A stretch of 64,000 nt of DNA, from the NCBI GenBank assembly GCA_000992695.1, contig LBUS01000001.1:1-64000 (forward strand), in the 5' to 3' direction. This DNA is from Candidatus Peregrinibacteria bacterium GW2011_GWF2_38_29 (lineage in GTDB: Bacteria > Patescibacteriota > Gracilibacteria > UBA1369 > UBA12463). A program made the position numbers and the translations under genes. The notes beneath the pieces are model-generated. The model saw only the letters and a list, made by a program, of their open reading frames with translations. It did no database searches and was not told where the DNA came from. Numbering within the stretch: position 1 is the stretch's first letter; every line of letters begins with the position of its first letter. This document shows positions 28,696-61,466 of the stretch, one piece after another.

Positions 28696-28891
28696 TATTG
28701 TACTTGACGGCCTAACGATGTACATCTTTTAGCTGCTCTCCAAGTGTAAATTTTACATTATATTTATATACTTAAAATCTCGTATGTAAGCTTTATACTG
28801 AATGACGGAAATCTCTCGTAATTTTTATGTCGACGGACTGAACCCGTCGTTATATAATAAAGTTAGTTTTAAAAATATAAATAATAGACTT

Positions 28892-34260: not shown

Positions 34261-35094
34261 CTAGCTTTCTTCTGTTATATCTTTCATCCTATCGGCTTCT
34301 TTATGCATTTGCTTTTCAAGCTCAGGATCGTATTTTTTGCCTATCTTTTCGTCATATTCAGACGATCTTTCATATGCAAGCATAAACAACTTCTTAAATG
34401 CATCTGCAACTTCACGACTTTCTATGATTGCGCCGAATTTTTCTTTAAGCGACATTATCGTCACTTTATCATCGTAAATATCAATTTCCGGCGAAATTCT
34501 ATATTTAACAGGGATTATTTTTGAAGTTCTGATATGTGCCTTATCCAAACCTTTGATTCTAAAAGAATCTTCGGTGTAAGCCAAAATAGCCTTAACCGGA
34601 ATTCCTCTGCGCGTGCGTCTGTCATAATATTCCGGAAAATAGCCTGGCATAAACGAATGTTGATTTTCAACCGATGCATAACCTAAAATTGCTGACCTTG
34701 CGGTTAATGTATCTTCGTATACGCTTATAATTCCCTCTACGCCTTCGTAAAATTTAATCTTCAATTTACCAGTTGGATGCCTGTGAATTGCTTTAAATTC
34801 AGGCAAAACTTTTTTTGCGCGTTGGATATTCGTTTCTATTTCTTTAAGATTTTCTTCCAACATACTTACAATTCTTTCCGGATTCTCGGCTATAAAAACC
34901 ATTTTTGATTTTTCTTCATATGTACTGACAAGCCCTTTTGTTATCAAGCCATTTAAAACATGATATCCATTTGTTCGCGTTATTTTGGCTTTTTTTGAAA
35001 TTTCAGTGACAGTTGAAGGACCCATCTCCAATAATGCAAGATAGATTTTGGCTTCCTTGTCGGTTAGGCCGAATTTTATGAGATCTTGAAACAT
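34261..35094 (-). CDS. TrmB-family transcriptional regulator (paralog of 28892..29659)
   Basis: FGLTDKEAKIYLALLEMGPSTVTEISKKAKITRTNGYHVLNGLITKGLVS; IKFYEGVEGIISVYEDTL. Confidence 0.82.
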   Translation of the reverse strand: MFQDLIKFGLTDKEAKIYLALLEMGPSTVTEISKKAKITRTNGYHVLNGLITKGLVSTYEEKSKMVFIAENPERIVSMLEENLKEIETNIQRAKKVLPEFKAIHRHPTGKLKIKFYEGVEGIISVYEDTLTARSAILGYASVENQHSFMPGYFPEYYDRRTRRGIPVKAILAYTEDSFRIKGLDKAHIRTSKIIPVKYRISPEIDIYDDKVTIMSLKEKFGAIIESREVADAFKKLFMLAYERSSEYDEKIGKKYDPELEKQMHKEADRMKDITEES

Positions 35095-44724: not shown

Positions 44725-46362
44725 TTAAACTACAGCCTTTATGTAGCACTTTTCGCACAAAACTTGCTTTGGAAAATTTGAAGAATATGGGGTTTTGATT
44801 GGAGATGAACAAGATGCGCACGTTCGAGAGTTGAGTCTGCGTGAAGTTCGTATAAAAATGCGGTTTCTGTGACGACAGTCGGGACACGTGTGCGGAATCG
44901 GAAGATTTAGGGCGCGATATCTCTGTAATTCTTGGCTGATTATATGAAAATTCTTTTCGCATTTATCACATGCGAGAAGATCTTTTATAATTGAATCGGT
45001 TGTTTGTTTTATGTCGTCGGGGATTACTGCGGTTTGCGGCTTATATTCACGCTTATCTTGCTCCTTCCATTTATAGTTTTTTGCGAGAGCTTGCTCTTTT
45101 GTAAGTGGCATATATTCGTGCGCGACGGTTTCGTTATATCCCCAAAGTGACATTTGCGTTGGAAAAAATTCGCCGAATTCTTTGGTGGTCGTCATATGGG
45201 CGATAATTTTTGGCAAAATGGTGCGATATTCTTCTTCGGAATACTGCTTATTTAAAATACAATACTTGCCACGATTTATCGCGATGCAACCAAACATAAA
45301 TGAAGAATTATTGCATTGATCACAGTAAAAAACATTGTCACAATAATGACTCGCCATATTGAATGCGGAAAATTTCATTGCCAAGGTGCTAATAAGCTCA
45401 CATGCAACTTCGGGCTTATATAAACTGTAATTCAGGTCGTAACAATCTTTTGCATCGAGCACGTCATAAAGATATTTCGAATCCCAGCAATTAATAACGT
45501 TATAAACGTCGTGACAGTTTTTGGAATTTTTAATGTCGTTGCCGTCACATTCCTCGGAAGCCATAATATACATATCGCGATGAATCGCTTTTTTCATGTT
45601 TTCTTTCCATTTTGCAATCATGTTTTTTAGCGATGAATATGAGCCAAAATTCATTTTTGCAAATTCCGCCATGTACTCTTCTTTTGAATAAGGCTTGTTG
45701 AAAATATAATATTTTTTGTGACGAAGATTATTGCAAAATAAACAATCGGAACAACCTTTTAAATCAAAGGAAAAAGCGCAGTCATTGCAGTTTTCGAGGT
45801 ACATAGAAAATTTGTCGTTGTAACAATCGTAGCAATTTATACACTCATGGCAAAGCTCGGAATTGTATACAAAAGTACAATCTGTGCAAAACCTGGAATG
45901 CTTTGTATAAAGGCAAAAATAACAGTTTTCATTAGCTTCGCCAGCGAGATCGAGATAGCAGTCTTTGTCATCGCCGCAATAGTTGCAGTAGTCGGAATTT
46001 TCGCAGTGAACAATGTCGATTCCGAGACGCGGAACTTCATTTATTAAATCTTGAAATTGATCGAAAAATGGACGATTAAAATCGAAATCTTGGCCGAATT
46101 TTCGAGGATCCCAATCGTCTTTGTACCATTCGGATGGTTTATAAACGGGAAATTTGGTTTTTTCAGGATAAATTGAGACGAATTTTTCGTGAGATCGGTC
46201 ACATTGGCGGAGATAAAATGAGCGATCATTGCGCCATGCCATGCGACGTTGAACGCGGCAGAAAGGGCAAAAAGTCGGGTGCGGGATTTTTACTTTTGCG
46301 TAAAAAGCGGCGTCTTCGGGCGTGATTTCGAATTGGGTTGAGCAATTTTGGCAGGTCGACAT
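44725..46362 (-). CDS. Cys-rich repeat protein, paralog A of a seven-member array
   Basis: Starts MSTCQNCSTQFEITPEDAAFYAKVKIPHPTFCPFCRVQRR; DFDFNRPFFDQF; two C.FC...KKYYIFNKPYSKEEY / KYCILNKQYSEEEY modules; C-terminal zinc-ribbon-like LLACDKCEKNF. Confidence 0.85.
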   Translation of the reverse strand: MSTCQNCSTQFEITPEDAAFYAKVKIPHPTFCPFCRVQRRMAWRNDRSFYLRQCDRSHEKFVSIYPEKTKFPVYKPSEWYKDDWDPRKFGQDFDFNRPFFDQFQDLINEVPRLGIDIVHCENSDYCNYCGDDKDCYLDLAGEANENCYFCLYTKHSRFCTDCTFVYNSELCHECINCYDCYNDKFSMYLENCNDCAFSFDLKGCSDCLFCNNLRHKKYYIFNKPYSKEEYMAEFAKMNFGSYSSLKNMIAKWKENMKKAIHRDMYIMASEECDGNDIKNSKNCHDVYNVINCWDSKYLYDVLDAKDCYDLNYSLYKPEVACELISTLAMKFSAFNMASHYCDNVFYCDQCNNSSFMFGCIAINRGKYCILNKQYSEEEYRTILPKIIAHMTTTKEFGEFFPTQMSLWGYNETVAHEYMPLTKEQALAKNYKWKEQDKREYKPQTAVIPDDIKQTTDSIIKDLLACDKCEKNFHIISQELQRYRALNLPIPHTCPDCRHRNRIFIRTSRRLNSRTCASCSSPIKTPYSSNFPKQVLCEKCYIKAVV

Positions 46363-46446
46363 GGGGACGGAGGTGTTATGGGCTAATTTTAACACGAGAG
46401 GGACGGAGGTTGGAAGGGCTAAATTTTATCGCCATACCTCCGTCCC
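46363..46446. repeat. REP-like GGGGACGGAGGT elements, triplet (46363-46374 +, 46400-46410 +, 46436-46446 inverted)
   Basis: Core (G)GGGACGGAGGT three times at about 36 bp pitch. Confidence 0.8.
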
Positions 46447-46450
46447 TCCC

Positions 46451-47389
46451 CTAAAGACCGTAGGTTATCACTTCCGGATATGTTGGCTCGTACCACTTGC
46501 CCCATTCGTTATCGGCTTTCATTTGCGAAATGATTTCGGCGACGCGCTTTGCATATTCTTCAGGCGAATATTGAACATTAAAAATGCAAAATTCGGCGTG
46601 ATTTATGGCCGTGCAACCAAAGCAATCGTGGCTTGTATAAACCGAATCGCAATAAGATAAATTGTTTGAATGCCAACAACCATAACAGAACATGCAGTTG
46701 TTTAAATTGCCGCCGGACATGATTTCATAGCAAAGTTCGGACCACCCAAGATGGCTGCAGTCTGCGAGATTTTTTGAATCGTCGCAGTGATAATTATAAA
46801 GACAATCGTGCAAGTTTTTTGAATCAAAAGCCCAGTATGCGTTTTTGGAATTATGAAGATTGTCGCCGTAGCTATTTTCTGTGTTTTTGCCGTACATAAA
46901 AATGCGCGGAAATTTTAATAATGCCGGAACGATTTTTTCGCAAATCTGGGCCGGCGTGAGCTTGCGAAGCTCGGCAACTTTTGTTTTATATTCTTCCGGA
47001 GAATATTTTTTATTGAAAATACAGTACTCGCTTTGACGTAAATTTATGCAGCCAAAACAGTTTTTGAGACTTACCGAATAAAAGCAAAAATCCGAATCGC
47101 TGGTATTTTCGCAATGGTCACAATAATTGCAGTTATATGAATTGATGCAATCAATACATTCATAGCAAAGCTCACATTTGTTGCAAAGCGTGCAGTCCGT
47201 ACAGTCCGTGCAATAAAAAACGCGATGATTATAAAGGCAAAATTGTGATTCGTAGCTCGCAAAAGTCATGTAACAATTTTTACTGCGCTCTGTGTATTGG
47301 CAGAAAGGGGAGTTAGTGTTATTTACGCATTGCAAACCGATGCGCGGATGCTTGAGTCGGAAGGCTTCGAATTGTTGGAGAAAGGTCAT
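46451..47389 (-). CDS. Cys-rich repeat protein, paralog B, lacking both zinc-ribbon-like terminal domains
   Basis: Begins at the TFLQQF...PRIG equivalent; has both IFNKKYSPEEY / IFNVQYSPEEY modules; no terminal CxxC domains. Confidence 0.75.
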   Translation of the reverse strand: MTFLQQFEAFRLKHPRIGLQCVNNTNSPFCQYTERSKNCYMTFASYESQFCLYNHRVFYCTDCTDCTLCNKCELCYECIDCINSYNCNYCDHCENTSDSDFCFYSVSLKNCFGCINLRQSEYCIFNKKYSPEEYKTKVAELRKLTPAQICEKIVPALLKFPRIFMYGKNTENSYGDNLHNSKNAYWAFDSKNLHDCLYNYHCDDSKNLADCSHLGWSELCYEIMSGGNLNNCMFCYGCWHSNNLSYCDSVYTSHDCFGCTAINHAEFCIFNVQYSPEEYAKRVAEIISQMKADNEWGKWYEPTYPEVITYGL

Positions 47390-47420
47390 GATATAATTTT
47401 AGCACAAGCGTATAGATTGC

Positions 47421-47714
47421 CTAAAAACCCAAAACTGCTGCTGACCATTTTGATTCAGCCTCGGCACTCAATCTCGCCACATTGCTTTTAACAATCCATA
47501 CCTCTCCCCCGTCTTCTAACACAACGTGTACCGCTCTTTCATTAACTTCGTCTATTGATCCGTATTCTCCAACGGCTGGACTCATCCCGTCGCCTACCAG
47601 AACGAATATTGTGTCCCCTATCCCCGGCAGAGACGTGTCTTCCACTGTCGCATCCGGGTCATCATCACGTAAATCGTCATCGCGTAATGATTCATCGTCT
47701 ATATCTATTCCCAT
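47421..47714 (-). CDS. Hypothetical small protein
   Basis: 97-aa ORF; GDTIFVLVGDGMSPAVGEYGSIDEVNERAVHVVLEDGGEVWIV. Confidence 0.5.
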   Translation of the reverse strand: MGIDIDDESLRDDDLRDDDPDATVEDTSLPGIGDTIFVLVGDGMSPAVGEYGSIDEVNERAVHVVLEDGGEVWIVKSNVARLSAEAESKWSAAVLGF

Positions 47715-47827
47715 ATTATGTTTGATTAAGGAGTTTATTGTATCACTAAAATCGTGATTTTGTAAATACCTTGATTTTAATTTTCATATATGCTATTCTA
47801 TATGTGTAATTATATAAGTTTTTATAT

Positions 47828-48076
47828 ATGGTAAAGATTATACCAACTACAAAAGTGCAACAGAATATAGGAGGAATTTCGGCTACTATAGGCCAAGATT
47901 TGTATATTGTGACCAATCGCGGAGAGGGAAGAATCGTAATGCTTCCTTATTTTGACGGGTGCGATGAACATTTTAATGAGTATATGGAGGATTACGTGAT
48001 GTCAAAAAATAAAGAAGTGCTAAAAAAACGTTATCAAAAATCTTCCGATTCCAAAAAAAGTGCGTTAACCGTATAG
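47828..48076 (+). CDS. Putative antitoxin (Phd/YefM-like)
   Basis: Small ORF 4 bp upstream of a RelE-like ORF; VKIIPTTKVQQNIGGISATIGQDLYIVTNRGEGRIVMLPY. Confidence 0.6.
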   Translation: MVKIIPTTKVQQNIGGISATIGQDLYIVTNRGEGRIVMLPYFDGCDEHFNEYMEDYVMSKNKEVLKKRYQKSSDSKKSALTV

Positions 48077-48080
48077 TAAA

Positions 48081-48350
48081 ATGGTTTTATTTGTTTTTAC
48101 AAAATACGCGGAGAATGTTTTTAAAAAATTGCCAAAAATTGAACGGGAAAGGATTTTAAGCAAGCTTCTTGAGCTCAAAAAACATCAAGACATTTTTTCC
48201 ATACTTAGAAAACTTATTGATTTTGAGCCGGCAACACACAGGCTTAGGATTGGTGATTATCGATTGATTTTGGAATTGAAGAAGTATGATTCAAAAATTG
48301 TTGAACTTTGGGTTCTTGACGTCGGACACAGGAAGGATATCTATAATTGA
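48081..48350 (+). CDS. RelE/ParE-superfamily toxin
   Basis: FTKYAENVFKKLPKIERERILSKL...HRLRIGDYRLILELKKYDSKIVELWVLDVGHRKDIY. Confidence 0.8.
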   Translation: MVLFVFTKYAENVFKKLPKIERERILSKLLELKKHQDIFSILRKLIDFEPATHRLRIGDYRLILELKKYDSKIVELWVLDVGHRKDIYN

Positions 48351-48378
48351 AAGGCCCTATTTTGGAATAATTGCGACT

Positions 48379-49992
48379 TCATTGAACGGCTTGCATATAA
48401 CATTTTTCGCAGTAGATTTTTTCGGGACGGTCGGGAGAGAATGCGGTTTGGATTTTTTCGTTACAATTTGCGCAAGTGCGATCAAAAAGATTTGGGAGAT
48501 TGCGTGTGAAAAAACGCTCGCGATGCCTGCAGAAAAAGCATTTTCGCGGGGACGGAATGTTCAATTTTTTATAGAAAATAAGCTCATGACTTGTGAGGCG
48601 GAAAGGTTTGCGGCATTCTTCGCAAAGATTTTCGGGGGATTGAGTGAATGATTTTTCTTGCGTGGAATCGTCGTGCCATTTATAACCTTTTTTAATCGCT
48701 TGCTCGCGAGTTAATGGAAAATAATCTTGCGCGGAGGTCTCGTTATAGCCAAAAGGTGAGAGGTTAATCGGAAAAAATTCGCCGTATTCGCCGGTCTTTT
48801 TCATGTGCAAAATTATGCGATCACGTAACTTTTTATAATCTTCTTCGGAATATTGTTTGTTCAAAATGCAATTTCTTTTGTTGTGCATACTGACGCAACC
48901 GAAACAATCTTGCGAGTTCATAACCGTATCGCAATAAGTTAAATTTGTGCATTCCCATGAGTTAAAAGTGAATTTGCCATTGAAACCGCCGGTGCCGGCA
49001 TTGATGGTTTCGTAATAAAGTTCCGGGTGGTCATAACCGATTGAAGAGCAGTCCATAACGTCTTTTATGCCTTCAGCTTGGACAATATATTTGCAATCTT
49101 CGCCATCAAAAATGTTTGATCCGTGCTGGACGTTTTTGCAATTTTCAAGATAATCGCCGGTGCAATTTTCGCAGTTTGTTTGATATGAAGGCGGATAAAT
49201 CGCTTGAGATTTGAAACGCTTATAATTGGTTACCGCTGCGGAAAAATTGTTTGGGTCGAGAAGTTGTTTTATGAGTTTTTCATATTCTTCTTTTGTCGAT
49301 TGCTTATTATGAATGTAATAAGTTTTGTTGCGAAGATTTGAACAAAAAATGCAATTGTTACATCCGCGGAGGTTTACGGAAAAATAGCAATAACCGCTGT
49401 TGTATGAGCCAAAACAGTGCACGCAATTATATAAATTTGAGCCCCAAACGGATTCGTAACAAAGCTCTGACATTTTAATTGATTCGCAGTCGCAACAATT
49501 TCTACAGTGGTTATAATGACGGCCATAATAGCAATCTTCGCTGTACCAAGAGCCGCCGACTGCGAGATAGCAATTTTTATTGTATCCGGCGTAATTGCAA
49601 AATTCTGAATTTTCCGCGGCTTTATTCATCAAACCAATGCGCGGAATACGCTTTTGCATTTCTGCATATTGCTCAAAAAATGTTTTATTAAAATCAAAAT
49701 CTCGCGCATATACATGCGGATCCCACTTATCACTCCACCAACAATCCTGGCAGAAAATTTTATATCCCGATTCCGGCGAATGAAGTGAAATTGTCGGATT
49801 CTTGCAAAGCGCGCAAATATTTTTATAAAGATGCGGCTCGTTGCGATACGTCAGTCTGCGTTGAAGTCTGCAATTCGGACAAAGAGTTGGAGGCAGAACC
49901 TCCAAACCCGGACCATAAGAAAGTTTTGCGTAAAAATTGAGGTCTTCTTTTGCAATTTCGAATGCGATTTGGCAGTTTTTGCAGGTTGGCAT
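48379..49992 (-). CDS. Cys-rich repeat protein, paralog C
   Basis: MPTCKNCQIAFEIAKEDLNFYAKL...CPNCRLQRR; WWSDKWDPHVYARDFDFNKTFFEQY; two modules; C-terminal zinc-ribbon-like domain. Confidence 0.85.
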   Translation of the reverse strand: MPTCKNCQIAFEIAKEDLNFYAKLSYGPGLEVLPPTLCPNCRLQRRLTYRNEPHLYKNICALCKNPTISLHSPESGYKIFCQDCWWSDKWDPHVYARDFDFNKTFFEQYAEMQKRIPRIGLMNKAAENSEFCNYAGYNKNCYLAVGGSWYSEDCYYGRHYNHCRNCCDCESIKMSELCYESVWGSNLYNCVHCFGSYNSGYCYFSVNLRGCNNCIFCSNLRNKTYYIHNKQSTKEEYEKLIKQLLDPNNFSAAVTNYKRFKSQAIYPPSYQTNCENCTGDYLENCKNVQHGSNIFDGEDCKYIVQAEGIKDVMDCSSIGYDHPELYYETINAGTGGFNGKFTFNSWECTNLTYCDTVMNSQDCFGCVSMHNKRNCILNKQYSEEDYKKLRDRIILHMKKTGEYGEFFPINLSPFGYNETSAQDYFPLTREQAIKKGYKWHDDSTQEKSFTQSPENLCEECRKPFRLTSHELIFYKKLNIPSPRKCFFCRHRERFFTRNLPNLFDRTCANCNEKIQTAFSPDRPEKIYCEKCYMQAVQ

Positions 49993-50006
49993 GAGCTAAT
50001 TATACC

Positions 50007-50285
50007 TTAATTAACTTTTTTACCCGCCTTCTTTCGTTTTCTAGTTACTCTTAAAAGCTCTCTCAATAAATCCGGGAACTCATCTTCAACCACCCATGAA
50101 GCAACTCTTGAGGTGCTTCTTATTAATCTATCAACCGGATATCCAACCCTCATTTGCATAGCATCATTAAATACCGATATTTCACTTCTATTGCTCGCAA
50201 CGACTCTCCCTATCGTAACTTCGCGTTCACCGTCCATAACTGCCACTGCCTCTCCGTGTTTCGGCAGTTCTCTTTCTATCGTCAT
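50007..50285 (-). CDS. Hypothetical small protein
   Basis: 92-aa ORF. Confidence 0.45.
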   Translation of the reverse strand: MTIERELPKHGEAVAVMDGEREVTIGRVVASNRSEISVFNDAMQMRVGYPVDRLIRSTSRVASWVVEDEFPDLLRELLRVTRKRKKAGKKVN

Positions 50286-51541
50286 ATAAAAATTGATTTT
50301 ATGGAATTAAAATTGCCTCCGTCCCCGTTAAAAGGAGAAATGCTTGCAGGGAAGAATTCGCCATATTCGCCCGTTTTTCGCATGTGATTCACGATTTTCT
50401 CTCGTAGTTTTTTATATTCTTCTTCCGAATATTGTTTGTTTAAAATGCAAAATTTTGCATGATGCATGGAAATACATCCAAAAATGTCTTTTGAATTTGC
50501 GCAATTATCGCAATAAAAAGCATTTGTGAGTCCTTGATAAACGTTGTTGCCAAAAGCCACATTGAAAGATCCGCGTCCGACAGAATGGCATTCATAAACA
50601 AGCTCCGCGCCTTCAATTCCACCGTATGTGTCGATGTCGTATCCGTCCTTGATTTTCTCGCAGTTAAAGACAAATTTGCAGTCTCTTAAGTTCGATGAAT
50701 CGAAACAGAAAGTTGAATTTTGGCAGTGATTTAAATAGTTGCCGGTGCAATTTTCGTTATTGTCGCCGTTTATAAATTTGTGTGGAAATTTTTTAACAAA
50801 TTCTGAGAAATCTTCGATTGAAAAATCTTTTGCCGACTTAATTTTCTCTAAGTATTCTTCTTTGGAATATTTTTCGTTCAAAAAATGAAATTCCTTGTTT
50901 ATCAGGTTAATACAGCCAAAACAGCTCTTGCATCCTGTGCAATTTTTAAGAAATTTTGAATCGCTGCAGTTTTTGCAATCTTGAGAAAATCCAAGGTTGT
51001 AACATTTGAAAATATCTACGCAGTCATTGCAAAGTTCGCATTCTACAGCGTAATTGCAATCGATTAAATCCACGCTTCTATATGTGTAATAAGAGTAAAA
51101 ACAATCGCGATTATTATCCGCTTCAAAACACATATAACAGTTTTTATTCCAGCTAGCCAAATTGCCATATTCCGCATTCTCGTTGGCAAAAGAATAGTTT
51201 AAAATTCTTGGAACAACTTTGAGTAAATCGCTAAATTGATCGAAAAAAGTTCGGTTAAAATCGAAATCACGACCATATGATAATGCGCTCCATTTATCGC
51301 TAAAAAAGTATTCATGATCGTAGACGGGAAATGAAGTATCTTCCGGATAAATACAAATTATTTCTTTGCCGGTGCCGCTGCATTTTCGTTTATAAAGTTT
51401 TCTTTCGTTACGCCAAGCGAGACGTCGCTGTTGACGACAGGAAGGGCAAAAGGTCGGTTCAGGAACTTGCATTTTGGAATAAAAATCGAGATCTTGAGGG
51501 GTGATTTCAAATTGGATTGAGCAGTTTTTGCAGGTTTGCAT
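50282..51541 (-). CDS. Cys-rich repeat protein, paralog D, C-terminally truncated by a REP-like element
   Basis: MQTCKNCSIQFEITPQDLDFYSKM; homology ends ...GEYGEFFPASISPF, then NGDGGNFN encoded by the REP core. Confidence 0.8.
   Translation of the reverse strand: MQTCKNCSIQFEITPQDLDFYSKMQVPEPTFCPSCRQQRRLAWRNERKLYKRKCSGTGKEIICIYPEDTSFPVYDHEYFFSDKWSALSYGRDFDFNRTFFDQFSDLLKVVPRILNYSFANENAEYGNLASWNKNCYMCFEADNNRDCFYSYYTYRSVDLIDCNYAVECELCNDCVDIFKCYNLGFSQDCKNCSDSKFLKNCTGCKSCFGCINLINKEFHFLNEKYSKEEYLEKIKSAKDFSIEDFSEFVKKFPHKFINGDNNENCTGNYLNHCQNSTFCFDSSNLRDCKFVFNCEKIKDGYDIDTYGGIEGAELVYECHSVGRGSFNVAFGNNVYQGLTNAFYCDNCANSKDIFGCISMHHAKFCILNKQYSEEEYKKLREKIVNHMRKTGEYGEFFPASISPFNGDGGNFNSIKSIFI
50315..50326 (-). 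repeat. REP-like element (single) inside the 3' end of paralog D
   Basis: GCCTCCGTCCCC (one mismatch to ACCTCCGTCCCC). Confidence 0.75.
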
Positions 51542-51548
51542 AGCGATT

Positions 51549-52616
51549 TTAAAAGTAATTTTTAACGGCAAATTCGTATTGTTCAATGAAAAGTTTTTTA
51601 AACGCAGTCAAACTGTGCTGTTCATAAAATAATATAATCGCTTTTTTATATTCAATCTCATCAACGCTTCTGTATGAGAGCGGACAATAACCATTTGCAA
51701 GTAAAATTGCATTACCAAGCATGCGCGATGTTCGCTTATTCCCATCTTCAAACGGCTGTATGTATGACAATGCCGCTACCGCAATCATTGACGATATAAA
51801 AGGATTCTTTAAATTATTCAACAATCCGCATAAAGCCTCCACAGCCTCTCTGATTTGATAAATATTGTCATAAGGCTTATAAGCCGTGCCTATAATCCCG
51901 ACGGGTCGACGTCTTAAGCCCTTTGGAATCTTTAAGCCTTTCGAGATCATATCATGCAATTCTTCGATTTTTTTCAATGAAACGGTCTTAAAGTATTTGG
52001 GTTTATCCCATATGTAATACAACGCCGTTTTATGATTTAAAATCATAACTGCCTCCTCGTGAGTTTTGCCCTTTGCTTCTTGTGAAGATTTCATGAGGCG
52101 TTCCGTGTCCAATAATGTGTAAGTATTCCCTTCTATATGAGAAGATCGCCATGAGAACTCGATAGTTATGCGCTCCAATTCTTTTTTGATTTGCTCTCGA
52201 TTGTATGATTTAAAGCGTTTAGAATGGATTTCGGTTAGATTTTTGATGTGTAAAAGCTCTTTTTTTGAAAATAAATTTTCGAAATCGATTTTACTTTTAA
52301 AATCCAACTTTTTTATATTTACTTCTCTTTTATCGGGTTCTTTTTTAAAATATTCGATTAGATCGAAACTTCTTTGAAGCTTCGGGATAAGGGCTTCATA
52401 AGCGACATTACGGCCATTACCGATCTTTCTTATTGAGCGACTTTTTAAAAGAATATTTAAGTCTCTAATAACTGTTATTCGCGAAGATTGATCAAAGTTA
52501 TCGGAAACGCCTTTGACTATTTCTTTAGTTGCCGCTTTACCAAGCCTTTCGATAACTTGGAGTATGAATTTTTGACGATTTGTTAATTGTATCATATTCT
52601 TGGATAATTGTATCAT
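51549..52616 (-). CDS. Fic-family protein with N-terminal winged-helix region
   Basis: Fic core AVAALSYIQPFEDGNKRTSRMLGNAILL (HPFxxGNGR-type motif); EFSWRSSHIEGNTYTLLDTE; N-terminal DeoR-like wHTH. Confidence 0.9.
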   Translation of the reverse strand: MIQLSKNMIQLTNRQKFILQVIERLGKAATKEIVKGVSDNFDQSSRITVIRDLNILLKSRSIRKIGNGRNVAYEALIPKLQRSFDLIEYFKKEPDKREVNIKKLDFKSKIDFENLFSKKELLHIKNLTEIHSKRFKSYNREQIKKELERITIEFSWRSSHIEGNTYTLLDTERLMKSSQEAKGKTHEEAVMILNHKTALYYIWDKPKYFKTVSLKKIEELHDMISKGLKIPKGLRRRPVGIIGTAYKPYDNIYQIREAVEALCGLLNNLKNPFISSMIAVAALSYIQPFEDGNKRTSRMLGNAILLANGYCPLSYRSVDEIEYKKAIILFYEQHSLTAFKKLFIEQYEFAVKNYF

Positions 52617-52640
52617 ATTGAAACAATTAAGACAAGGGAA

Positions 52641-54320
52641 TTAAATTTTATTGGATCCGAAAACGTGTTTAGTATAACATTCCTCGCAATAAATTGGCGG
52701 ATGAATGAATGAATCTTGCGCGGAATTTTGCGGATAGCTCGTCATGATTTTCTTATCACATTTATCGCATTTTGATTCGAAAAGTTGTTTTGGATTGCGC
52801 GTTGCAAGGCGGGAAAAATGGCGGCAGTTAGGGCAATCTATTGGCGCCGGAACATTCAATGCGCGATAAAATTTGAGTTCTTGATCTATGAGTTTAAAAT
52901 TTTTGCCGCAGGATTTACAAGCTAGAAGTTCGTTCATTATAGAATCCGAAACGTCTGCGATTCTTTCCGGCATTTTGTAGGTTTGAGGTATAAACTTGGC
53001 ATCGCTTTCAAGCCATTTAAAGCCCTGTTTTAAAGCTTCTTCCTTGGTTTTCGGGAAAACCTCCATAACCAAGGATTCATTGTATGCAAAAGGGCAAATT
53101 TCGATTGGAAAAAACTGGCCATATTCATTTTTTTGCATGTGCGCGATTATGCGTGCGCGAAGGTCTTTATATTCTTCTTCCGAATATTCCTGATTTAAAA
53201 TGCAGAATTTTTTGCGTTTTAGGCCGACGCATCCGAAACAATCTTTACAGCCGGTGCAATGATCGCAATATTCAAGATTGGAATTGTTGGTTGTGCAGGT
53301 TGTGCAAAATTTCAAATTGTATGCGTTGTTTCCGCATGCGGCGCATTCATATAAAAGCTCGGCTTTATCGCCCCAGCCTGAATAATCCATGCAATTTTTG
53401 GCTTGCATAGCCACTCTTCCGACATATTTGCAGTCTTCCAAATCCTTGCAATCAAAACAATATTCTGCGTTTTTTGAATCGTATAAATAATCACCGAGTG
53501 AATTTTCGTTGTGCTCTTGCTGAAGATTTTTATGCGGCTCCGCTATGAAAAATTCTTCGGCTTGTTTGCGGAATTTTGCAATATTTGCAAGCGTTTGAAA
53601 ATCAAATTCGGCAAGCTGTTTTTCGTAATCGCGCTTTGAATATTCTTTGTTAAAAATATAATACTGCTTATGACGCAGATTTATGCATCCTATGCAGTTT
53701 TTGCAGGATTTGCAGTTGTTTAAAAAATAGCTTTCCGAACACGTTTCACAATCACTTGAATATTTAAGATTATAACAATTTTGGCAATCAATCGCTTCAT
53801 AGCAAAGCTCGGATTTGTAGATACTCAAGCAATCCATGCAATTTTGCGAATGATAAAGACGGTTGCTGTAATAACAATCTTCGTCGTAATCGGCTTCGAA
53901 AGTCATATAACAATTTTTCAGATAACCGGCGCAGTTTGTGTATAAACTGTTTGTCATGGTTTCACCTATTACAAAAGCGGAAAGATGAGGCGTGACATTT
54001 TTAAGATCGTGAAATTGCGGAAAAAACGGTTTGTTAAAATCGAACGGTCGAGCGTATTTTGTTGCATCCCATTTATCAGACCACCAAACTTTCCAATGAT
54101 AAACCGGAAATGGATGATTTTCGTGATATTGCGAAATTATTTCTTCGCCGGAAAAGTCACATTTGCGCTTGTATAAGGTTCGCGTGTTGCGTTCGAGTAG
54201 GCGGCGAATCCAACGGCAATCGGGGCAAGAAGTTGGAGGTGGGACGGAAAGTTTTGAATAAAAAGAGAGATCACTTTGGGTGATTTCGAATTGACTCTGG
54301 CATTTGGCGCAAGTTGGCAT
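52641..54320 (-). CDS. Cys-rich repeat protein, paralog E
   Basis: MPTCAKCQSQFEITQSDLSFYSKLSVPPPTSCPDCRWIRR; two modules; C-terminal LLACKSCGKNFKLIDQELKFYRALNVPAPIDCPNCRHFSR. Confidence 0.85.
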   Translation of the reverse strand: MPTCAKCQSQFEITQSDLSFYSKLSVPPPTSCPDCRWIRRLLERNTRTLYKRKCDFSGEEIISQYHENHPFPVYHWKVWWSDKWDATKYARPFDFNKPFFPQFHDLKNVTPHLSAFVIGETMTNSLYTNCAGYLKNCYMTFEADYDEDCYYSNRLYHSQNCMDCLSIYKSELCYEAIDCQNCYNLKYSSDCETCSESYFLNNCKSCKNCIGCINLRHKQYYIFNKEYSKRDYEKQLAEFDFQTLANIAKFRKQAEEFFIAEPHKNLQQEHNENSLGDYLYDSKNAEYCFDCKDLEDCKYVGRVAMQAKNCMDYSGWGDKAELLYECAACGNNAYNLKFCTTCTTNNSNLEYCDHCTGCKDCFGCVGLKRKKFCILNQEYSEEEYKDLRARIIAHMQKNEYGQFFPIEICPFAYNESLVMEVFPKTKEEALKQGFKWLESDAKFIPQTYKMPERIADVSDSIMNELLACKSCGKNFKLIDQELKFYRALNVPAPIDCPNCRHFSRLATRNPKQLFESKCDKCDKKIMTSYPQNSAQDSFIHPPIYCEECYTKHVFGSNKI

Positions 54321-54338
54321 GAATTAATAAGTTAGTTT

Positions 54339-54707
54339 TTACTGGGCATTATTCATTCCTTCTAATAAACTTAAAACCTCTTCAAAACTATCTGTATAAT
54401 GTATGTCTTCTTGCCTTCTCTCTTCCGGCACTCTATGCGCACTTACAGAGAAAAATATTAAATTATTAATACCATTACTCTTTGCTTCATCTAATATGTC
54501 TAGTCCTGCAAAAAGCTCCCCGTCGCCTAAATTTCCATCACATACAACTGCAAATATTTTGTCCCTAAATCTCCTAATTAATTCTAATGCGTCTGTTTTG
54601 TTTGATGCTTCAATTGTTGAAGCAGACGGAATCTTTTTACCTACCGCCCATTTTACGTCATCCCTTATGTCTGCGTCATCGTCTATAATTAAAACAAGTT
54701 TTTCCAT
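54339..54707 (-). CDS. Stand-alone response-regulator receiver-like domain
   Basis: EKLVLIIDDDADIRDDV; VVCDGNLGDGE; LIFFSVSAH. Confidence 0.75.
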   Translation of the reverse strand: MEKLVLIIDDDADIRDDVKWAVGKKIPSASTIEASNKTDALELIRRFRDKIFAVVCDGNLGDGELFAGLDILDEAKSNGINNLIFFSVSAHRVPEERRQEDIHYTDSFEEVLSLLEGMNNAQ

Positions 54708-54729
54708 ACTATTTTACACTTTAAGCTCA

Positions 54730-54777
54730 ACCTCCGTCCCTCTTTCTCGCCGAAAACTCATTTCAACCTCCGTCCCC
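54730..54777 (-). repeat. REP-like elements, direct doublet (54730-54740, 54766-54777)
   Basis: ACCTCCGTCCC and ACCTCCGTCCCC, 36 bp pitch. Confidence 0.8.
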
Positions 54778-54780
54778 GAG

Positions 54781-57072
54781 CTAAACGGGGTCCGGGAAGG
54801 CCATTTCATACAGCTTCTTATCAATCTGGATCTCTTCTTCAATCATGCCGCCTTTGTCGATAATCATTTGCTTAGCGAGGTTGCGGGCGTTTTCTTCGAG
54901 ATTGATGCCATAAACTTTGCGGCTGTTTTCCAAAATTTGCTTGGAGAATTCTTTTGCGGGCTTGGAAATGAAGAGCGTGCGGCCGGAAAAGGCTTTGTGA
55001 ATTTCGCCTTTAATCGTGATTTTGCAGTAAAATTCCTGAACACCGAGATTAATTAAATCGCGCTCAATAAAGACCGGAGTATATTCTTTTACAAAGTGCT
55101 GAGCATCTTCACCACCCATGCGGAATGTGATCATTGAGCCAACGTTACCGAAAATGGTTTTTTTCATTTGCTCGCTTAACTGACCCATAAACTGATGTGC
55201 GATATTTAAAATCAAATGATATTTTCTAGCTTCGGAAAGAATTTCGCCGAAGGAATCCGTTGTGAAGTTTTGGAATTCATCAACGTATAAATAGAAGTCT
55301 TTGCGCTTATCTTCCGCAATATCTTGTCTCGACATCGCTGATTGATAAATCTTTGTGATAAACATTGCGCCGAGTAGTTGAATGTTTTCTTCACCGAGAA
55401 TTCCTTTTGGAAGTTTTATCAAAAGAATTTTTTGCTTATCCATTATTTCACGGATGTTGAATGTGTTTTCCGGAACGGAAATTACGTTTTTTATCATCGT
55501 GTTTCCGGCAAGCTGGCCGAGTTTGTTGAGAAGGGGATTAATGGCTTCAGAACTGTATTTTTCGGTCCATGAAGGAAACTCGTTTGTCCAAAAATTTGCA
55601 ACACTTTCATCCTTTATATGGCGAATAACTTTTTGACGATATTCACGCTCGGAAACCATGCGTTTTATGGAAAAAACCGTGGCATCTTTTGTATCCAAAA
55701 GCGCAAGAACGCTATAACGAAGAACATGTTCAAGACGCGCATTCCAGTTTGAACCGAATGCTTTTTTGAAAATATTTACAAAACCGTTTGTGACCTGCAT
55801 TTTCATTTTTTCCTCAACATGTTCGAGCGGATTGAATGGCACGGGACGGTCCGTATCAAGAGGATTAAAGAACACGACATCTTTTATACGGTTTTCCGGA
55901 ATGTATGTCATGACGTTTTCGATAAGATCACCGTGTGGGTCAATAACCGCTACGCCATGCCCATTTTGAATGTCTTCACGAATTAACAATTCGAATAATT
56001 TTGATTTACCAACGCCGGATTTACCAAGAACATATGAATGACGAATGCGATCTTTGCGAAGAATACCGAATTTGCGGTAATTGCCGTGATAATTCGTCAT
56101 ACCAAAAAGACAGTTGTCTGCCGCGTGTTCCGGTGGAAGATCTGCAGGAGGTTCGGCTTTTTTTGATATTACTGCGGAAAAATGAGGAATATCTTTTGGA
56201 TTTGGAAGATGAAGAATTGTAATTAATTCTTCAACGTTAAGAAGTGTATATGGAGTTGCCGGCCTTTCGAGCGTTTGCCTTAATGCTTCTCTTCCTGTAA
56301 ATATCTTTTTTGGAATAAATTTATTTGTGCTTTGGCTTGAATAATATGCCTGCATTGATTGGAAAAACATGTGCGCCAAATCTTTGGATTTTTTCTCACG
56401 CGAGGCTATGCCAAGCTGAACGTTAACGCGAATCGTATCTGATTTTTCTTTTTGCTTAATCCAATCATCTTCTTTTTCAAAAAGTCCTTCTTTTCTTGCA
56501 TCGCGAAATCTGAATTTTCTCCTGAAATAATGGAGAGATTTTAGGATTTTTCTTTTAATAAGGAAGAAAAAACTTTCGGTTTGTTTGCTTAAAATCATTT
56601 GAACCCAGCCACGTTCTTCTCCGCGAAGCTCAGCCAAAAAACTGCATATTGTTGATAGAGAATCTTTATAAAATTCAATTGCGGCAGAAGTTTCTTTCAC
56701 TTTATCCGGAACGGAATCCATTCTTAACACATTGAAAGTTTTTATCGGAACAATGAATGATTTTGTTTCTTTTAAATCGTAAACCGTGACTTCAAAATCG
56801 CCCTGCAAATTGAATGGATCGGCTTTCATCTCAATCATTTCTGCGGCCGGAAATATAGAATAAAAAAGTGATTGGAACTTTACAAGAATGCTTTCATCAA
56901 GCGTCACAAATAAATAAACAATTCCTTTATAGCCCATCAATTCAAAAGAAACTTTTTCACTTCCTTCTGAAAGGACTTTGCGCAAAGTGTCGATCAGTCT
57001 GCCGAAATTCTCGATCGTGGCATGATCGTGTTTTTCTTGCGGCGGAGTTTTTATGTATAAATATTTGTTCAT
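54781..57072 (-). CDS. Type IV secretion/conjugation-like ATPase (VirB4/TraG/HerA-type)
   Basis: HSYVLGKSGVGKSKLFELLIREDIQNGHGVAVIDPHGDLIENVM; DFYLYVDEFQNFTTDSFGEILSEARKYHLILNIAHQFMGQL. Confidence 0.85.
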   Translation of the reverse strand: MNKYLYIKTPPQEKHDHATIENFGRLIDTLRKVLSEGSEKVSFELMGYKGIVYLFVTLDESILVKFQSLFYSIFPAAEMIEMKADPFNLQGDFEVTVYDLKETKSFIVPIKTFNVLRMDSVPDKVKETSAAIEFYKDSLSTICSFLAELRGEERGWVQMILSKQTESFFFLIKRKILKSLHYFRRKFRFRDARKEGLFEKEDDWIKQKEKSDTIRVNVQLGIASREKKSKDLAHMFFQSMQAYYSSQSTNKFIPKKIFTGREALRQTLERPATPYTLLNVEELITILHLPNPKDIPHFSAVISKKAEPPADLPPEHAADNCLFGMTNYHGNYRKFGILRKDRIRHSYVLGKSGVGKSKLFELLIREDIQNGHGVAVIDPHGDLIENVMTYIPENRIKDVVFFNPLDTDRPVPFNPLEHVEEKMKMQVTNGFVNIFKKAFGSNWNARLEHVLRYSVLALLDTKDATVFSIKRMVSEREYRQKVIRHIKDESVANFWTNEFPSWTEKYSSEAINPLLNKLGQLAGNTMIKNVISVPENTFNIREIMDKQKILLIKLPKGILGEENIQLLGAMFITKIYQSAMSRQDIAEDKRKDFYLYVDEFQNFTTDSFGEILSEARKYHLILNIAHQFMGQLSEQMKKTIFGNVGSMITFRMGGEDAQHFVKEYTPVFIERDLINLGVQEFYCKITIKGEIHKAFSGRTLFISKPAKEFSKQILENSRKVYGINLEENARNLAKQMIIDKGGMIEEEIQIDKKLYEMAFPDPV

Positions 57073-57074
57073 AA

Positions 57075-58778
57075 TTATAATAACGAATCGTTAAAACATT
57101 GCTCACAGAAAACGATATATGGAGAATCCGGTGGAAATGTTGTTTGAAAATTTTTGCTGCATTTTTGACATCTTCTTTCGTAAAGCTTGCGAGGATTATA
57201 TCTATGAAAACGCTCGCGATAACGCAAATCAAATGCATTTTCCGGAAGTGGGACTTTCATTTGTTGATGCAAAGCAAGTTCACGACCCGTGATTTTGAAT
57301 GGTTTTTTCGTGACAACATCATAAAAAGTGGTTGCAAGAATTTCGTCATTTTTGGCTTCGTAAAGCGAATCCGGTGGAAGAATATCTTTATCGGGAACTG
57401 CTTTTGCTTTATCAACATGCCATAAATGAGTTTTTTTATAACTTGCCGGTGGCTTCCAAAGTTCTTCGGATTTTTTCAAGAGCTCCGCATACTTTTCTTT
57501 TTCATATGGATACCAAACGTCGGCGACTGTTGTATTATAAGCAAATGGCGACATCCAGAATGGAAAAAATTGACCCCATTCTTTTGTCTGCTTCATGAAT
57601 TTAATTATTTTTTGTTTCAAAATTTTATATTCATCGGCTGAATACTGCCTATTTAAAATGCAATATTTCTTGTTCTTTAAGCCAATACATCCAAAACAGT
57701 CCTGGCACATTTGGCAGTTATCAATATAAAAACAACTTGAACAATCGTTTGAAAAATTTCCCACAAAATTCATTCCACCACGCAAACACGTCTGATTTTC
57801 AAAACTTTTTTGTGTGCCATAAGCAATTGCCCAACAGTCCATACAATCGCGAAGATTGAACGTTGAACTGTTCATATTTGAACAACCAACTATGTCGTCG
57901 CCGGAATAACAGTTTTCGCAATCTTTGCTGTTTGTTAAACGATCACCGGTTGAATTTTCGGCTTTTAAAAGATACATATAACGTTGCGGGGTCGTTTCCA
58001 AAAACATATGGAACATTTCTTTTGCTTTTTTATAAGAGCGTCTTCGGAAAAGCTGTCTTTGAAGCATAAATGTCATGAAAACGTCGGGGCTGACTTCTGT
58101 GTTAAAAATGCAATTTTTTTGATCACGTAGGCCGAATGAAAATATGCAATTGTGGCAATTTACAAGATTTGAAGAAAAATAAACGTTTGAGCAATTCATG
58201 CAATTTTCGCATGCTACAGCAGAATGACAGCCGGTGCAGAATAAACAATCATAGCATAATTCGCATCTTGTTAATTCTTCGGAATCCATGGAATCTTTGC
58301 ATAAAATAAAACTTCCATAATGACAGTTTACGTTGTCGTCAGCGGTAAAAACCATGTAACAATCGTTGTTGTTATTTGAATCGTTCGTAAACATTGAATT
58401 CTGATTTTTGGCTTGAATTAAAGATGGACGCGGCACTTCAAGCATTAATTCGTAAAATTGTTGGAAAAATGTTTTCTCAAAATCGAAATTTTTTCCGAAT
58501 GTGATGCCGTCCCAAGAATCGCCCCACCAAACGTCTTTATCGAAAATCTTGAAAGGTGCGGCTTCGCTATAAATAGACCAAATCTCTTTATCTGTTTGAG
58601 CGCATTTTCTTTTAAAAAGAGCTCTTTCGTTGCGGAAAGCAATTCTTCGCATTTCACGACATTGCCTACAAAAAACCATGCTTATCGGATCAACATCGAA
58701 TTCGCCAAGAAGTCTTGTTTCTTGTTCTGTAAGCTCAAATTCCTTTTCACCGACGCAATTGGGATTTTGACAAAGCAT
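57075..58778 (-). CDS. Cys-rich repeat protein, paralog F (divergent)
   Basis: MLCQNPNCVGEKEFELTEQETRLL...FCRQCREMRRIAFRNE; WWGDSWDGITFGKNFDFEKTFFQQF; KKYCILNRQYSADEY; C-terminal CQKCSKNFQTTFPPDSP. Confidence 0.82.
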   Translation of the reverse strand: MLCQNPNCVGEKEFELTEQETRLLGEFDVDPISMVFCRQCREMRRIAFRNERALFKRKCAQTDKEIWSIYSEAAPFKIFDKDVWWGDSWDGITFGKNFDFEKTFFQQFYELMLEVPRPSLIQAKNQNSMFTNDSNNNNDCYMVFTADDNVNCHYGSFILCKDSMDSEELTRCELCYDCLFCTGCHSAVACENCMNCSNVYFSSNLVNCHNCIFSFGLRDQKNCIFNTEVSPDVFMTFMLQRQLFRRRSYKKAKEMFHMFLETTPQRYMYLLKAENSTGDRLTNSKDCENCYSGDDIVGCSNMNSSTFNLRDCMDCWAIAYGTQKSFENQTCLRGGMNFVGNFSNDCSSCFYIDNCQMCQDCFGCIGLKNKKYCILNRQYSADEYKILKQKIIKFMKQTKEWGQFFPFWMSPFAYNTTVADVWYPYEKEKYAELLKKSEELWKPPASYKKTHLWHVDKAKAVPDKDILPPDSLYEAKNDEILATTFYDVVTKKPFKITGRELALHQQMKVPLPENAFDLRYRERFHRYNPRKLYERRCQKCSKNFQTTFPPDSPYIVFCEQCFNDSLL

Positions 58779-58811
58779 TAATAAGTTTTTAAATCGGTGC
58801 AATTATAGCAC

Positions 58812-58860
58812 GGGGACGGAGGTTGAGATAGCAAATTCGAGCACCCATACCTCCGTCCCC
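58812..58860. repeat. REP-like inverted doublet (58812-58823 / 58849-58860)
   Basis: CACGGGGACGGAGGT ... ACCTCCGTCCCCGTG, 25-nt spacer. Confidence 0.85.
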
Positions 58861-58975
58861 GTGTCAAAACGTCATAAAAATCATATAAATCAAGAGATTA
58901 AGTTTGCACTAAATTGAAATACGGAGCTATCATTTAGTCTTAAAAATAAATTAATACATTTTAACCCCAAACATT

Positions 58976-59869
58976 ATGTTTAAAAAAATCGCTTCAATGG
59001 TCGCTGTCATTGCTCTTTTGGCTGCGGTCACGCTAACTGCCGGAGCGGCGCAAGTCGGCACAGCAAACGCTTATTATTATGATAATAATTATGTGAATTA
59101 TTATACGGATTATCCGGGATATTTAGAGCCTATATATGTCGCGTATGAAGAGCCTAACTATCAATATAATGACAATGTCGATTACGGCGTTTCTATTGCC
59201 GTTTATCAAAAACATCCGACTGTAACCATAAATCACTATGGATTGACGCCTTCAACTGTTTACATCCAACGCGGAGACACAGTCGTTTGGGCAAATAATG
59301 ACGATGCAACGCATTCGATTGTTTCTGATACTTTTAACTCGGGAAGTTTATTCCCCGGAAGAGTTTTCTCGGAAGTATTTGAACACGCAGGAACTTATTA
59401 TTATCACTGCTCAATTCACCCATCTATGACCGGAAAAGTCGTGGTTGGAAATGGGATTTCCGATACATATACGGATTATAATAATAACTATAATACTTAT
59501 AATTCCGATGCCGTTTATTATCAGGTTGATTATCCTTCTTATTTACAGCCGGCACATCCAACTTATAAGCCAACTTATTATCAGCCGGTTGTAGCTCCTG
59601 TTTATCAACCTGTAGTTGCGCCCGCTTATTACCCTGAATATGAGCCTCATTACAATTACAATTCTCAATATTTTCGTTCTGCGATGAGCGAATATGATCA
59701 ATATGTTCAAGCTCATTCTTGGCCGACTGTCGGATCGTATGTGAATTCTATTTATGACTATCGCTTAAGCAATTCCAATTATCAGCCTTTCTATGGTACA
59801 AGCGGTTATGTCAGCTATAATGGATGGAATAACAATACTGTCTCATATCCGTATTATCAGAACTGGTAG
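58976..59869 (+). CDS. Secreted cupredoxin (type-1 copper) protein with Tyr/Pro-rich flanks
   Basis: Signal peptide; TVYIQRGDTVVWANNDDATHSIVSD ... AGTYYYHCSIHPSMTGKVVV with H, C, H, M copper-ligand pattern. Confidence 0.88.
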   Translation: MFKKIASMVAVIALLAAVTLTAGAAQVGTANAYYYDNNYVNYYTDYPGYLEPIYVAYEEPNYQYNDNVDYGVSIAVYQKHPTVTINHYGLTPSTVYIQRGDTVVWANNDDATHSIVSDTFNSGSLFPGRVFSEVFEHAGTYYYHCSIHPSMTGKVVVGNGISDTYTDYNNNYNTYNSDAVYYQVDYPSYLQPAHPTYKPTYYQPVVAPVYQPVVAPAYYPEYEPHYNYNSQYFRSAMSEYDQYVQAHSWPTVGSYVNSIYDYRLSNSNYQPFYGTSGYVSYNGWNNNTVSYPYYQNW

Positions 59870-59870
59870 G

Positions 59871-61466
59871 CTAGATAACGGTTTTTAAATAGCAGGCTTC
59901 ACAGAAGACTTTTTGATGCCTTTCCGGAGGATAAGTTGATTCTATTTGCGCGCTACAATTTGAACATTTTTGAGCCCAGATTTTGCGAGGGTTTTTAAAG
60001 AAAAATCTCTGGTTATGGCGACAGCCCGGACAAAGCGTTGGATGCGGAAGCTGCATTATTTTATAGAATTGAATTTCTTGATTTACAAGCCTGTAGTTTT
60101 TGCCGCAAAATTCGCATGCAAGAATATCTTTTGAAGTTGGTTTTGCATATTCTTTAATGTCTTTTTCACGCCATCTATAGCCCTTTTCAAGAGCCTGTTC
60201 ACGCGTAATTGGACACCACTCCATAGCAATAGTTTCATTATATTCAAATGGTGAAAATTTGATTGGGAAAAATTCGCCGTATTCATTTGTGCGCTTCATG
60301 TGATCTATAATTCTTGGAATGAGTTTGCGATATTCTTCTTCCGAATATTGCTTATTTAAAATGCAAAATTTTTCACGCTTTAAACTTATGCAACCGAATA
60401 AATCCGATGAATAATAACATGCGCTACAATAAGAAATGTTATTGGAATAATGGCTGTAATAAGAGGTTTTGCAGTTATACATCTGAAGAGCGGACATGAC
60501 TTCATAAGACAGTTCTGGCTTGTAATAAATATTGTTGCAGTCAAAGCAAAATTTGGCATCACCTTCCGCACAAAATGCGCACTCTTCCGTGTCTTGCATA
60601 TCAAAACAAAGCTTGCTGTTTTTGCAGTGAGAAAGGTTATCTCCTGAGACATTTTCACAACTGATAATATCTGCGGCTTTATGGATTGAATCTGTTAAAA
60701 ATATTTTGCGAAGGTTGTGAAATGCTTTTTTATAGCCTTCACTTGTGCTTAATTTAAGCTCTTTTTTGGCTTTTTCAAAATCTTCTTTGGAATAGCTTTT
60801 ATTAAAAATTGAATATTCTTGATTGCGTAAATTGTAGCAAAAAATGCAATTTTGGCAGGATTTTAAATCATAACTAAAAAGACAATCTGAGCAGTTTTGG
60901 GATTGAACGAGTCCAATGCAGTGGTAACAATTATGGATATTTACGCAGTCATAACAAAGTTCGCTATCCCAAAGATAATCCGAATCGCAGCAATTTTTAT
61001 TGGCCTGCGCGAGCTTGCAATAATAGCAATCCTCAGCCTTTTCCGAGGCAATTGTCATATAACAATTTTTGCAATCGCTGGAAAAATTTGTGTATTCGGA
61101 ATTAACATTATTTAGACTGCCGGTGTTAAGTCGCGGAACGGAATTTTGAAGATCTTTGAATTGTTCGAAAAATGATTTTGTGAAATCAAAGTCGCGACCA
61201 TAATCTTTTGCATCCCATTTATCTCCAAAAAAACAATCGTTACAAAATTGCTTGAAAGGTTTATCTGAAGAATAAATTGCGATAACGTCTTTGCTACATA
61301 AATCGCATTTTCTGGCATATAGGCTGGATTCGTTGCGGACCGCAAGACGGCGCTGATAACGACAAGTTGGGCAAAGGGAAGGGTGCGGAACTTGAATTTT
61401 GGAATAAAATTCAGCGTCTTTGGAATTGATCTCAAACGGCTGTGCGCAATTATGACAGGCTTTCAT
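59871..61466 (-). CDS. Cys-rich repeat protein, paralog G
   Basis: MKACHNCAQPFEINSKDAEFYSKIQVPHPSLCPTCRYQRR; DFDFTKSFFEQF; two modules; C-terminal zinc-ribbon-like domain. Confidence 0.85.
   Translation of the reverse strand: MKACHNCAQPFEINSKDAEFYSKIQVPHPSLCPTCRYQRRLAVRNESSLYARKCDLCSKDVIAIYSSDKPFKQFCNDCFFGDKWDAKDYGRDFDFTKSFFEQFKDLQNSVPRLNTGSLNNVNSEYTNFSSDCKNCYMTIASEKAEDCYYCKLAQANKNCCDSDYLWDSELCYDCVNIHNCYHCIGLVQSQNCSDCLFSYDLKSCQNCIFCYNLRNQEYSIFNKSYSKEDFEKAKKELKLSTSEGYKKAFHNLRKIFLTDSIHKAADIISCENVSGDNLSHCKNSKLCFDMQDTEECAFCAEGDAKFCFDCNNIYYKPELSYEVMSALQMYNCKTSYYSHYSNNISYCSACYYSSDLFGCISLKREKFCILNKQYSEEEYRKLIPRIIDHMKRTNEYGEFFPIKFSPFEYNETIAMEWCPITREQALEKGYRWREKDIKEYAKPTSKDILACEFCGKNYRLVNQEIQFYKIMQLPHPTLCPGCRHNQRFFFKNPRKIWAQKCSNCSAQIESTYPPERHQKVFCEACYLKTVI

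Follow-up and report, generated by a model that had tools for sequence, protein, structure and literature searches.

Why should a bacterium with a 1.23-Mb genome carry, side by side on one strand, seven related genes for extremely cysteine-rich proteins? The question is raised by positions 44,725 to 61,466 of the 64,000-nucleotide stretch analysed here (hereafter, the window), which comprises positions 1 to 64,000 of contig LBUS01000001.1 of Candidatus Peregrinibacteria bacterium GW2011_GWF2_38_29. An initial annotation had described seven minus-strand open reading frames (ORFs), here called F, as an old and diversifying family of one common architecture to which no known function could be assigned. 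We find good support for a partnership between these proteins and an ATPase (A) encoded among them; this association is a new link. We propose, with a probability of about 0.48, that the F proteins are cytosolic recognition adaptors that work with this dedicated VirB4/VirD4/HerA-type ATPase. The genes concerned, with each F protein numbered by its first coordinate, are as follows (aa, amino acids):

59871-61466, minus strand: F59871, 531 aa, complete; reference for the AlphaFold model. Approximate domains, all minus strand: N-terminal zinc module 61188-61466; core 1 60792-61133; core 2 60342-60671; C-terminal zinc module 59874-60137
57075-58778, minus strand: F57075, 567 aa, complete, divergent; cognate partner of ATPase A
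54781-57072, minus strand: ATPase A, 763 aa; VirB4/VirD4/HerA superfamily
52641-54320, minus strand: F52641, 559 aa, complete; largest core group (25 sequences, 20 source labels)
50282-51541, minus strand: F50282, 419 aa; C-terminal zinc module missing
48379-49992, minus strand: F48379, 537 aa, complete
46451-47389, minus strand: F46451, 312 aa, core-only (two solenoid halves, zinc modules absent)
44725-46362, minus strand: F44725, 545 aa, complete; core group of 14 sequences

All seven ORFs are present at these coordinates, five of them complete. They share blocks along their whole length, align to the last copy, F59871, at 34-43% identity, and yield a profile that recovers them and all other copies at E values far below 1e-20. 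Cysteine makes up 6.3-9.9% of the seven proteins, as against 0.0-0.3% of the flanking superoxide dismutase (SOD) and RNase J. The layout is a double treble-clef zinc module at both ends, with two Cys-rich core halves between. Homology links core 1 with core 2 (hhalign E 1e-37) and likewise the N-terminal with the C-terminal zinc module (E 2e-29); the zinc modules correspond to zf_Tbcl plus zf_Tbcl_2: the Pfam model of the latter is matched by F48379 alone (29.2 bits, cut-off 27), the other copies falling under the cut-off, and stand-alone and split homologs, described below, clearly match both models. A confident AlphaFold model of F59871, made with 100 homologs (pLDDT 91.3, pTM 0.91), shows short strands every 12 residues. 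In core 1, 1417 of 1456 cysteines (97%) occupy one phase modulo 3, and the autocorrelation of Cys in the core peaks at 3, 9 and 12. The model, taken with this strict spacing, supports the prediction that the central part of F is a beta-solenoid with a 12-residue coil and an interior packed with Cys/Ser ladders, a fold that had been guessed at from the letters alone.

What, then, is the purpose of so many cysteines? At the core positions of the solenoid Cys interchanges with Ser, and distant single-core homologs mostly have Ser there; the core cysteines are accordingly best taken to pack the interior and not to bind metal. Metal binding appears credible for the terminal treble-clef modules only: one Cys4 site in the N-terminal module (C4, C7, C32, C35) is conserved in 92-99% of 100 homologs and one in the C-terminal module (C501, C504, C522, C525) in 98-100%; the remaining two metal sites of the zinc modules are degenerate in the same homologs. 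The earlier proposal of metal binding, drawn from CxxC spacing, is therefore unsupported for the solenoid. The F proteins have no transmembrane (TM) segment and no evident signal peptide. A fold search with the whole F model returned no match below E 0.001 in PDB or viral models, and the solenoid core has no named relative by sequence in Pfam, NCBIfam, PADLOC or PDB; we too can assign no known function by such searches.

The ATPase, which had escaped the initial annotation, is separated from F57075 by 2 bp. It matches PF10412 (TrwB_AAD_bind, 39.6 bits) and PF02534 (T4SS-DNA_transf, 35.9 bits) above cut-off, and also DUF87; it carries P-loop and DE motifs, and its ratio of nonsynonymous to synonymous substitution rates (dN/dS) is 0.012. 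The fold of its model (pLDDT 76) matches those of TrwK/VirB4 (Foldseek E 3e-11), the Legionella coupling complex, TrwB (TMt 0.58) and HerA. There is no hydrophobic segment of TM strength in A (maximum 19-residue hydropathy 1.28); an N-terminal membrane anchor is absent, and the model contains no long N-terminal helix pair.

How tightly are F and A bound to each other in evolution? From a phylum-spread sample of 380 genomes, 36 of the same class were compared, with G363, in which F is split, kept apart. An A-type ATPase (at least 1030 bits; the next best score within the class is about 693) is found in 22 of the 22 genomes with full-length F and in 0 of the 14 without it, a split with a naive chance of 1/C(36,14) = 2.6e-10. 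The contrast is also seen within genera: G020 and G371 have both F and A and G031 has neither, just as G306 has both and G354 neither. Among 21 close relatives, A is present in 16 of 16 with F, although known in two of these (G011 and G015) only from contig-end or interrupted pieces, and in 0 of 5 without F. In roughly 10 of 15 cases A lies within about 3 kb of F. When the 98-99% orthologs of the sister genome are set aside, the F57075-A pair recurs in G019, a member of another family, with F 64% and A 71% identical, compared with about 31% for other F and 34-51% for other A; from this matched divergence we conclude that F57075 and A were inherited together, as one unit. A version of A that scores 850-870 bits occurs in four genomes with F outside the class, and two genomes (G226 and G363) encode the zinc module and the double core in separate genes, side by side, with an ATPase next to them. 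More distant forms repeat the arrangement: in four genomes of other families, a single-core protein of ~235 aa is encoded directly downstream of a VirD4/HerA-like ATPase in 4 of 4 (loci L134, L135, L136 and L138; one of these operons has a TrmB-like regulator upstream), and in a fifth, G316, an ATPase of this kind carries the single core as its C-terminal domain (L137:2699-4612, minus strand). Genes that neighbour one another, occur or are missing together, are inherited jointly and, in a related form, are fused point to a functional complex or pathway; we regard the ATPase-F partnership as well supported.

The 17-kb array is real, but it is merely part of a genome-wide and phylum-wide family. 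Profile searches of the 23 contigs of the source genome yield 21 family loci (22 ORFs) spread over many of them; six copies are core-only with a start of their own, a form that recurs elsewhere. Two copies (G000:C7:11080-12423 and G000:C13:25613-26975) have in-frame stops or are broken into two ORFs, one for the zinc module and one for the core; the core ORF of the split copy adjoins that genome's second A-type ATPase. Far from being restricted to one assembly, the family matches in 31 of 40 genomes (the source and 39 relatives) at E <= 0.001, a few of them by short matches only, and reaches a maximum of 33 per genome. A scan of GTDB gives at least 566 relatives. The best 80 matches belong nearly all to Patescibacteria (Peregrinibacteria, Peribacteria, Gracilibacteria, Uhrbacteria, Nomurabacteria and others), and the nearest named record among the matches listed is Candidatus Peregrinibacteria GW2011_GWC2_39_14 (L032). 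In the 380-genome sample, full-length members occur in about 30, and many other genomes match only through a stand-alone zinc-module protein of ~100 aa. A phage or plasmid origin was considered and rejected: two window copies were unmatched in a phage set and one in a plasmid set, and IMG/VR gave a single edge match. The split-type distant core has only weak Campylobacter phage matches (CP20, CPt10, CP21, CP220 and others; E down to 3e-4); these are hypothetical proteins with Cys-rich repeats, one of them annotated with insect-antifreeze Pfam hits.

Are the copies redundant? For most copies of the source genome, the sister genome (its lineage is represented in the tree by L021 and L032) holds a 1:1 ortholog, mostly at 0.01-0.08 substitutions per site and in one case at 0.44; three, those on contig C7 and two core-only copies on C13, have no close ortholog in the set. 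In the tree, the nearest paralog in the same genome is at least 1.38 substitutions per site away, and copies of other genera or families are frequently closer than own paralogs. Recent tandem duplication is ruled out by this tree, as the initial annotation had anticipated. Its suggestion of selection for dosage is unsupported because recent duplicates are absent and each copy is distinct and strongly conserved. The dN/dS values of the array copies, 0.02-0.09, are comparable to those of RNase J (0.049) and SOD (0.059). By these sequence comparisons, the copies are evidently ancient, each a distinct gene under strong purifying selection; the word "diversifying" suits the relation between ancient paralog groups and not that within them, where selection is purifying.

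Another observation concerns which part of the protein is conserved. When array copies are paired with their sister-genome orthologs, dN/dS is 0.013-0.031 in cores compared with 0.075-0.122 in zinc modules. Of 292 pairs at tree distances below 1.0, 225 show stronger conservation in the solenoid than in the zinc modules; above 1.4, this is so in fewer than 10% of pairs. Because the tree includes the cores, the comparison was redone without it, and core identity proved to be bimodal when zinc-module identity was held fixed. This contrast within and between groups marks the solenoid as the group-specific part, held fixed; it has the appearance of a recognition surface particular to each group. 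Exchange of zinc modules among paralogs could add to the pattern.

We hypothesize that these features describe one motor with many readers. A single A per genome (sometimes two) would serve many F proteins, whose zinc modules are common to the family and whose solenoid sequence is specific to each ancient paralog group; the solenoid of each F would offer an unvarying surface to a partner of its own, either a protein or a nucleic acid, and F would couple that partner to the ATPase. We infer that F contacts A physically, that it acts as an adaptor and which of its parts meets the motor. One motor combined with many ancient, fixed and mutually different solenoids favours recognition adaptors rather than dosage or storage. 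On a wider scale, we consider it a tentative proposition, somewhat short of even odds, that Patescibacteria possess a dedicated ATPase, of a secretion or DNA-pump type, served by as many as about 30 ancient solenoid adaptors, each with its own fixed recognition surface: one motor with many receptors. Such a system would explain at least one clade among the orphan ATPases of Patescibacteria that resemble type IV coupling proteins (T4CP).

Several points weigh against the adaptor proposal. Three F-bearing genomes of another family, outside the class (G196, G386 and G394), have no A above the strict cut-off, and A is not adjacent to F in G004, G012, G018 and G002, nor is one of the two in G019. 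The co-occurrence counts ignore phylogeny, and the bit-score cut-off was set after the gap had been seen. The ATPases beside the single-core proteins fall in another clade, scoring 104-122 bits against the A profile, and this places the link to the distant forms at the level of superfamily, not orthology. If A is bound by the zinc modules, one would not expect them to drift faster than the solenoid within orthologs; if A is bound by the solenoid, the divergence of the solenoid between groups would need another explanation.

Could F instead be what the motor moves? An effector repertoire, passed by a T4CP-like ATPase to the patescibacterial type IV secretion system (T4SS) for delivery into host cells, would likewise account for co-occurrence and for one A-type motor per genome against up to 33 diverse F, and a T4SS that resembles protein-export systems, together with orphan VirD4-like ATPases, is present in Patescibacteria (PMC12102498, PMC10633639). 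We nevertheless think this unlikely: fusion of a core domain to the ATPase would be odd for cargo, the low dN/dS and 1:1 orthology are unlike those of fast-evolving effectors, the C-terminus in the F59871 model is a folded zinc finger with no flexible tail, and A above the cut-off is missing from those same three F-bearing genomes.

Two further alternatives are improbable, each to a similar degree. The first is that A and F form a HerA-system-like defence against phages or plasmids in which F proteins are the sensors. The two are indeed patchy and jointly present or absent; A is HerA-like by Pfam and fold and matches the PADLOC HerA/mads_8 models, and toxin-antitoxin and Fic genes sit within the array. 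Yet the 1:1 orthology and strong purifying selection are not those of turnover, up to 33 chromosomal copies are unlike known systems, and no partner of HerA defence (nuclease, SIR2, DUF4297 or other effector gene) was recognised among the window neighbours of A and F. F as a known defence protein was rejected for want of a PADLOC match. The second is that F proteins are DNA- or RNA-binding regulators or scaffolds, linked to the ATPase by a common DNA-processing task (DNA transfer, repair) and not by coupling of adaptor to motor; treble-clef fingers, a positive charge of the C-terminal zinc modules (+6.6 on average) and a DNA-pump-like ATPase are set against acidic cores (about -4.6 each) and a group-specific part that is the solenoid, not the fingers. 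Storage of metal or thiol, or redox buffering, to which a content of 7% Cys overall and 10-11% in cores might speak, is very improbable, since the core-1 cysteines are almost only at interior-phase positions where they are interchangeable with the Ser that homologs carry, and since such a role would neither freeze about 20 distinct sequences nor track an ATPase.

The neighbourhood of the array had been called housekeeping-like, which is not purely so: in addition to the ATPase, other genes lie between the copies. Three of these lack an ortholog in the sister genome's syntenic stretch of 28.5 kb, namely:

51549-52616: Fic protein
54339-54707: weak response-regulator match
47421-47714: 97-aa ORF, no assigned identity

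That stretch has instead an extra truncated F copy (L143:13016-14296). A putative antitoxin and a ParE-like toxin (47828-48350, inside the array) are 99% identical to the sister genome, with dN/dS of 0.01-0.02, and a cupredoxin with a Tyr/Asn/Pro-rich tail (58976-59869) is the fastest-evolving gene of the region compared (dN/dS 0.18). Dispersed F copies appear to have no recurrent partner gene, their neighbours looking random by inspection.

In other genera, TrmB-like regulators adjoin F arrays (L036, L044, L081, L085, L090, L177 and about 30 more loci), usually divergent with roughly 100-250 bp between. Such a gene is immediately divergent at 23 of 84 array heads; 40 occur among 605 non-family genes of the examined loci, compared with 2-16 per genome, and copy numbers of the two families correlate (rho 0.51). 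The TrmB-like protein is therefore a likely regulator of F arrays outside the window. As a universal partner it was rejected: it is also found in F-less genomes, and neither of the window's two genes (28802-29656, plus strand; 34264-35094, minus strand) adjoins F. An F-specific leaderless promoter was similarly set aside, since -10-like boxes near the start are equally common in other genes (33% against 28%). Across loci L009-L109, such boxes often lie 11-20 nt upstream of the start codon and Shine-Dalgarno-like motifs are all but missing, at 6% of the F genes and 1.6% of 365 other genes, which together suggest that many mRNAs in these lineages are leaderless.

What emerges is a large paralogous set in ~1.2-Mb genomes, selected like housekeeping genes and built on a solenoid with no named relative: up to about 30 ancient versions in ultra-small, uncultivated bacteria. 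We found no description of the family in the open literature (subscription papers and preprints lay outside the search). Patescibacteria have a monoderm-like T4SS, and a published survey counted 5,713 VirD4-like ATPases across 2,918 of their genomes and placed only 148 of these ATPases near virB4; the role of these ATPases, exaptation included, was left open (PMC12102498). No coupling protein has been recognised for the essential T4SS of Saccharibacteria (PMC10633639). The link between one ATPase clade and the solenoid family provides a testable partner for the orphan VirD4-like ATPases (PMC12102498), and, provided that it occurs in a cultivable strain, the operon of single core and ATPase known from other lineages would be a simpler model.

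How does F compare with systems already described? In Peregrinibacteria, the Cys-rich extracellular proteins of Ca. Peribacter are likewise a multi-gene family, but they average 1,655 aa and most have signal peptides (PMC4736985), whereas F is about 540 aa. The phage family phrog_15341 has Cys-rich 12-residue repeats and a profile match of up to 8e-19 to the split-type core; in tblastn, where the matches are Campylobacter phages, only stretches of about 60-110 residues align (27-36% identity), and the likeness may be homology or convergence. The Tenebrio thermal hysteresis protein (1ezg; PF02420) has the same 12-residue coil, with a small or Cys residue at every third position; its profile match is non-significant (E 3.5), with no PF02420 match at E <= 1 in Pfam, and it is small, extracellular and disulfide-bonded, whereas F is large, apparently cytosolic and zinc-capped. 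The terminal modules of F are the same double treble clef as zf_Tbcl (PF13451) and zf_Tbcl_2 (PF23477; also NCBIfam TIGR04272), which in distant lineages is the separate ~100-aa protein, twice encoded beside a core-only protein; unlike plain zf_Tbcl, F has the module duplicated, one per solenoid end, with half of the metal sites degenerate. A shares its ATPase domains and its P-loop and DE motifs with VirB4/VirD4 (TrwK/TrwB) and HerA; in contrast to these, it lacks a TM segment, tracks and neighbours F, and forms a distinct clade. In the Legionella type IV coupling complex, the ATPase DotL acts with several adaptors (DotN, IcmSW and others), one of which is a zinc protein. By analogy, A and F may work in a comparable manner, with the difference that F is a single expanded family.

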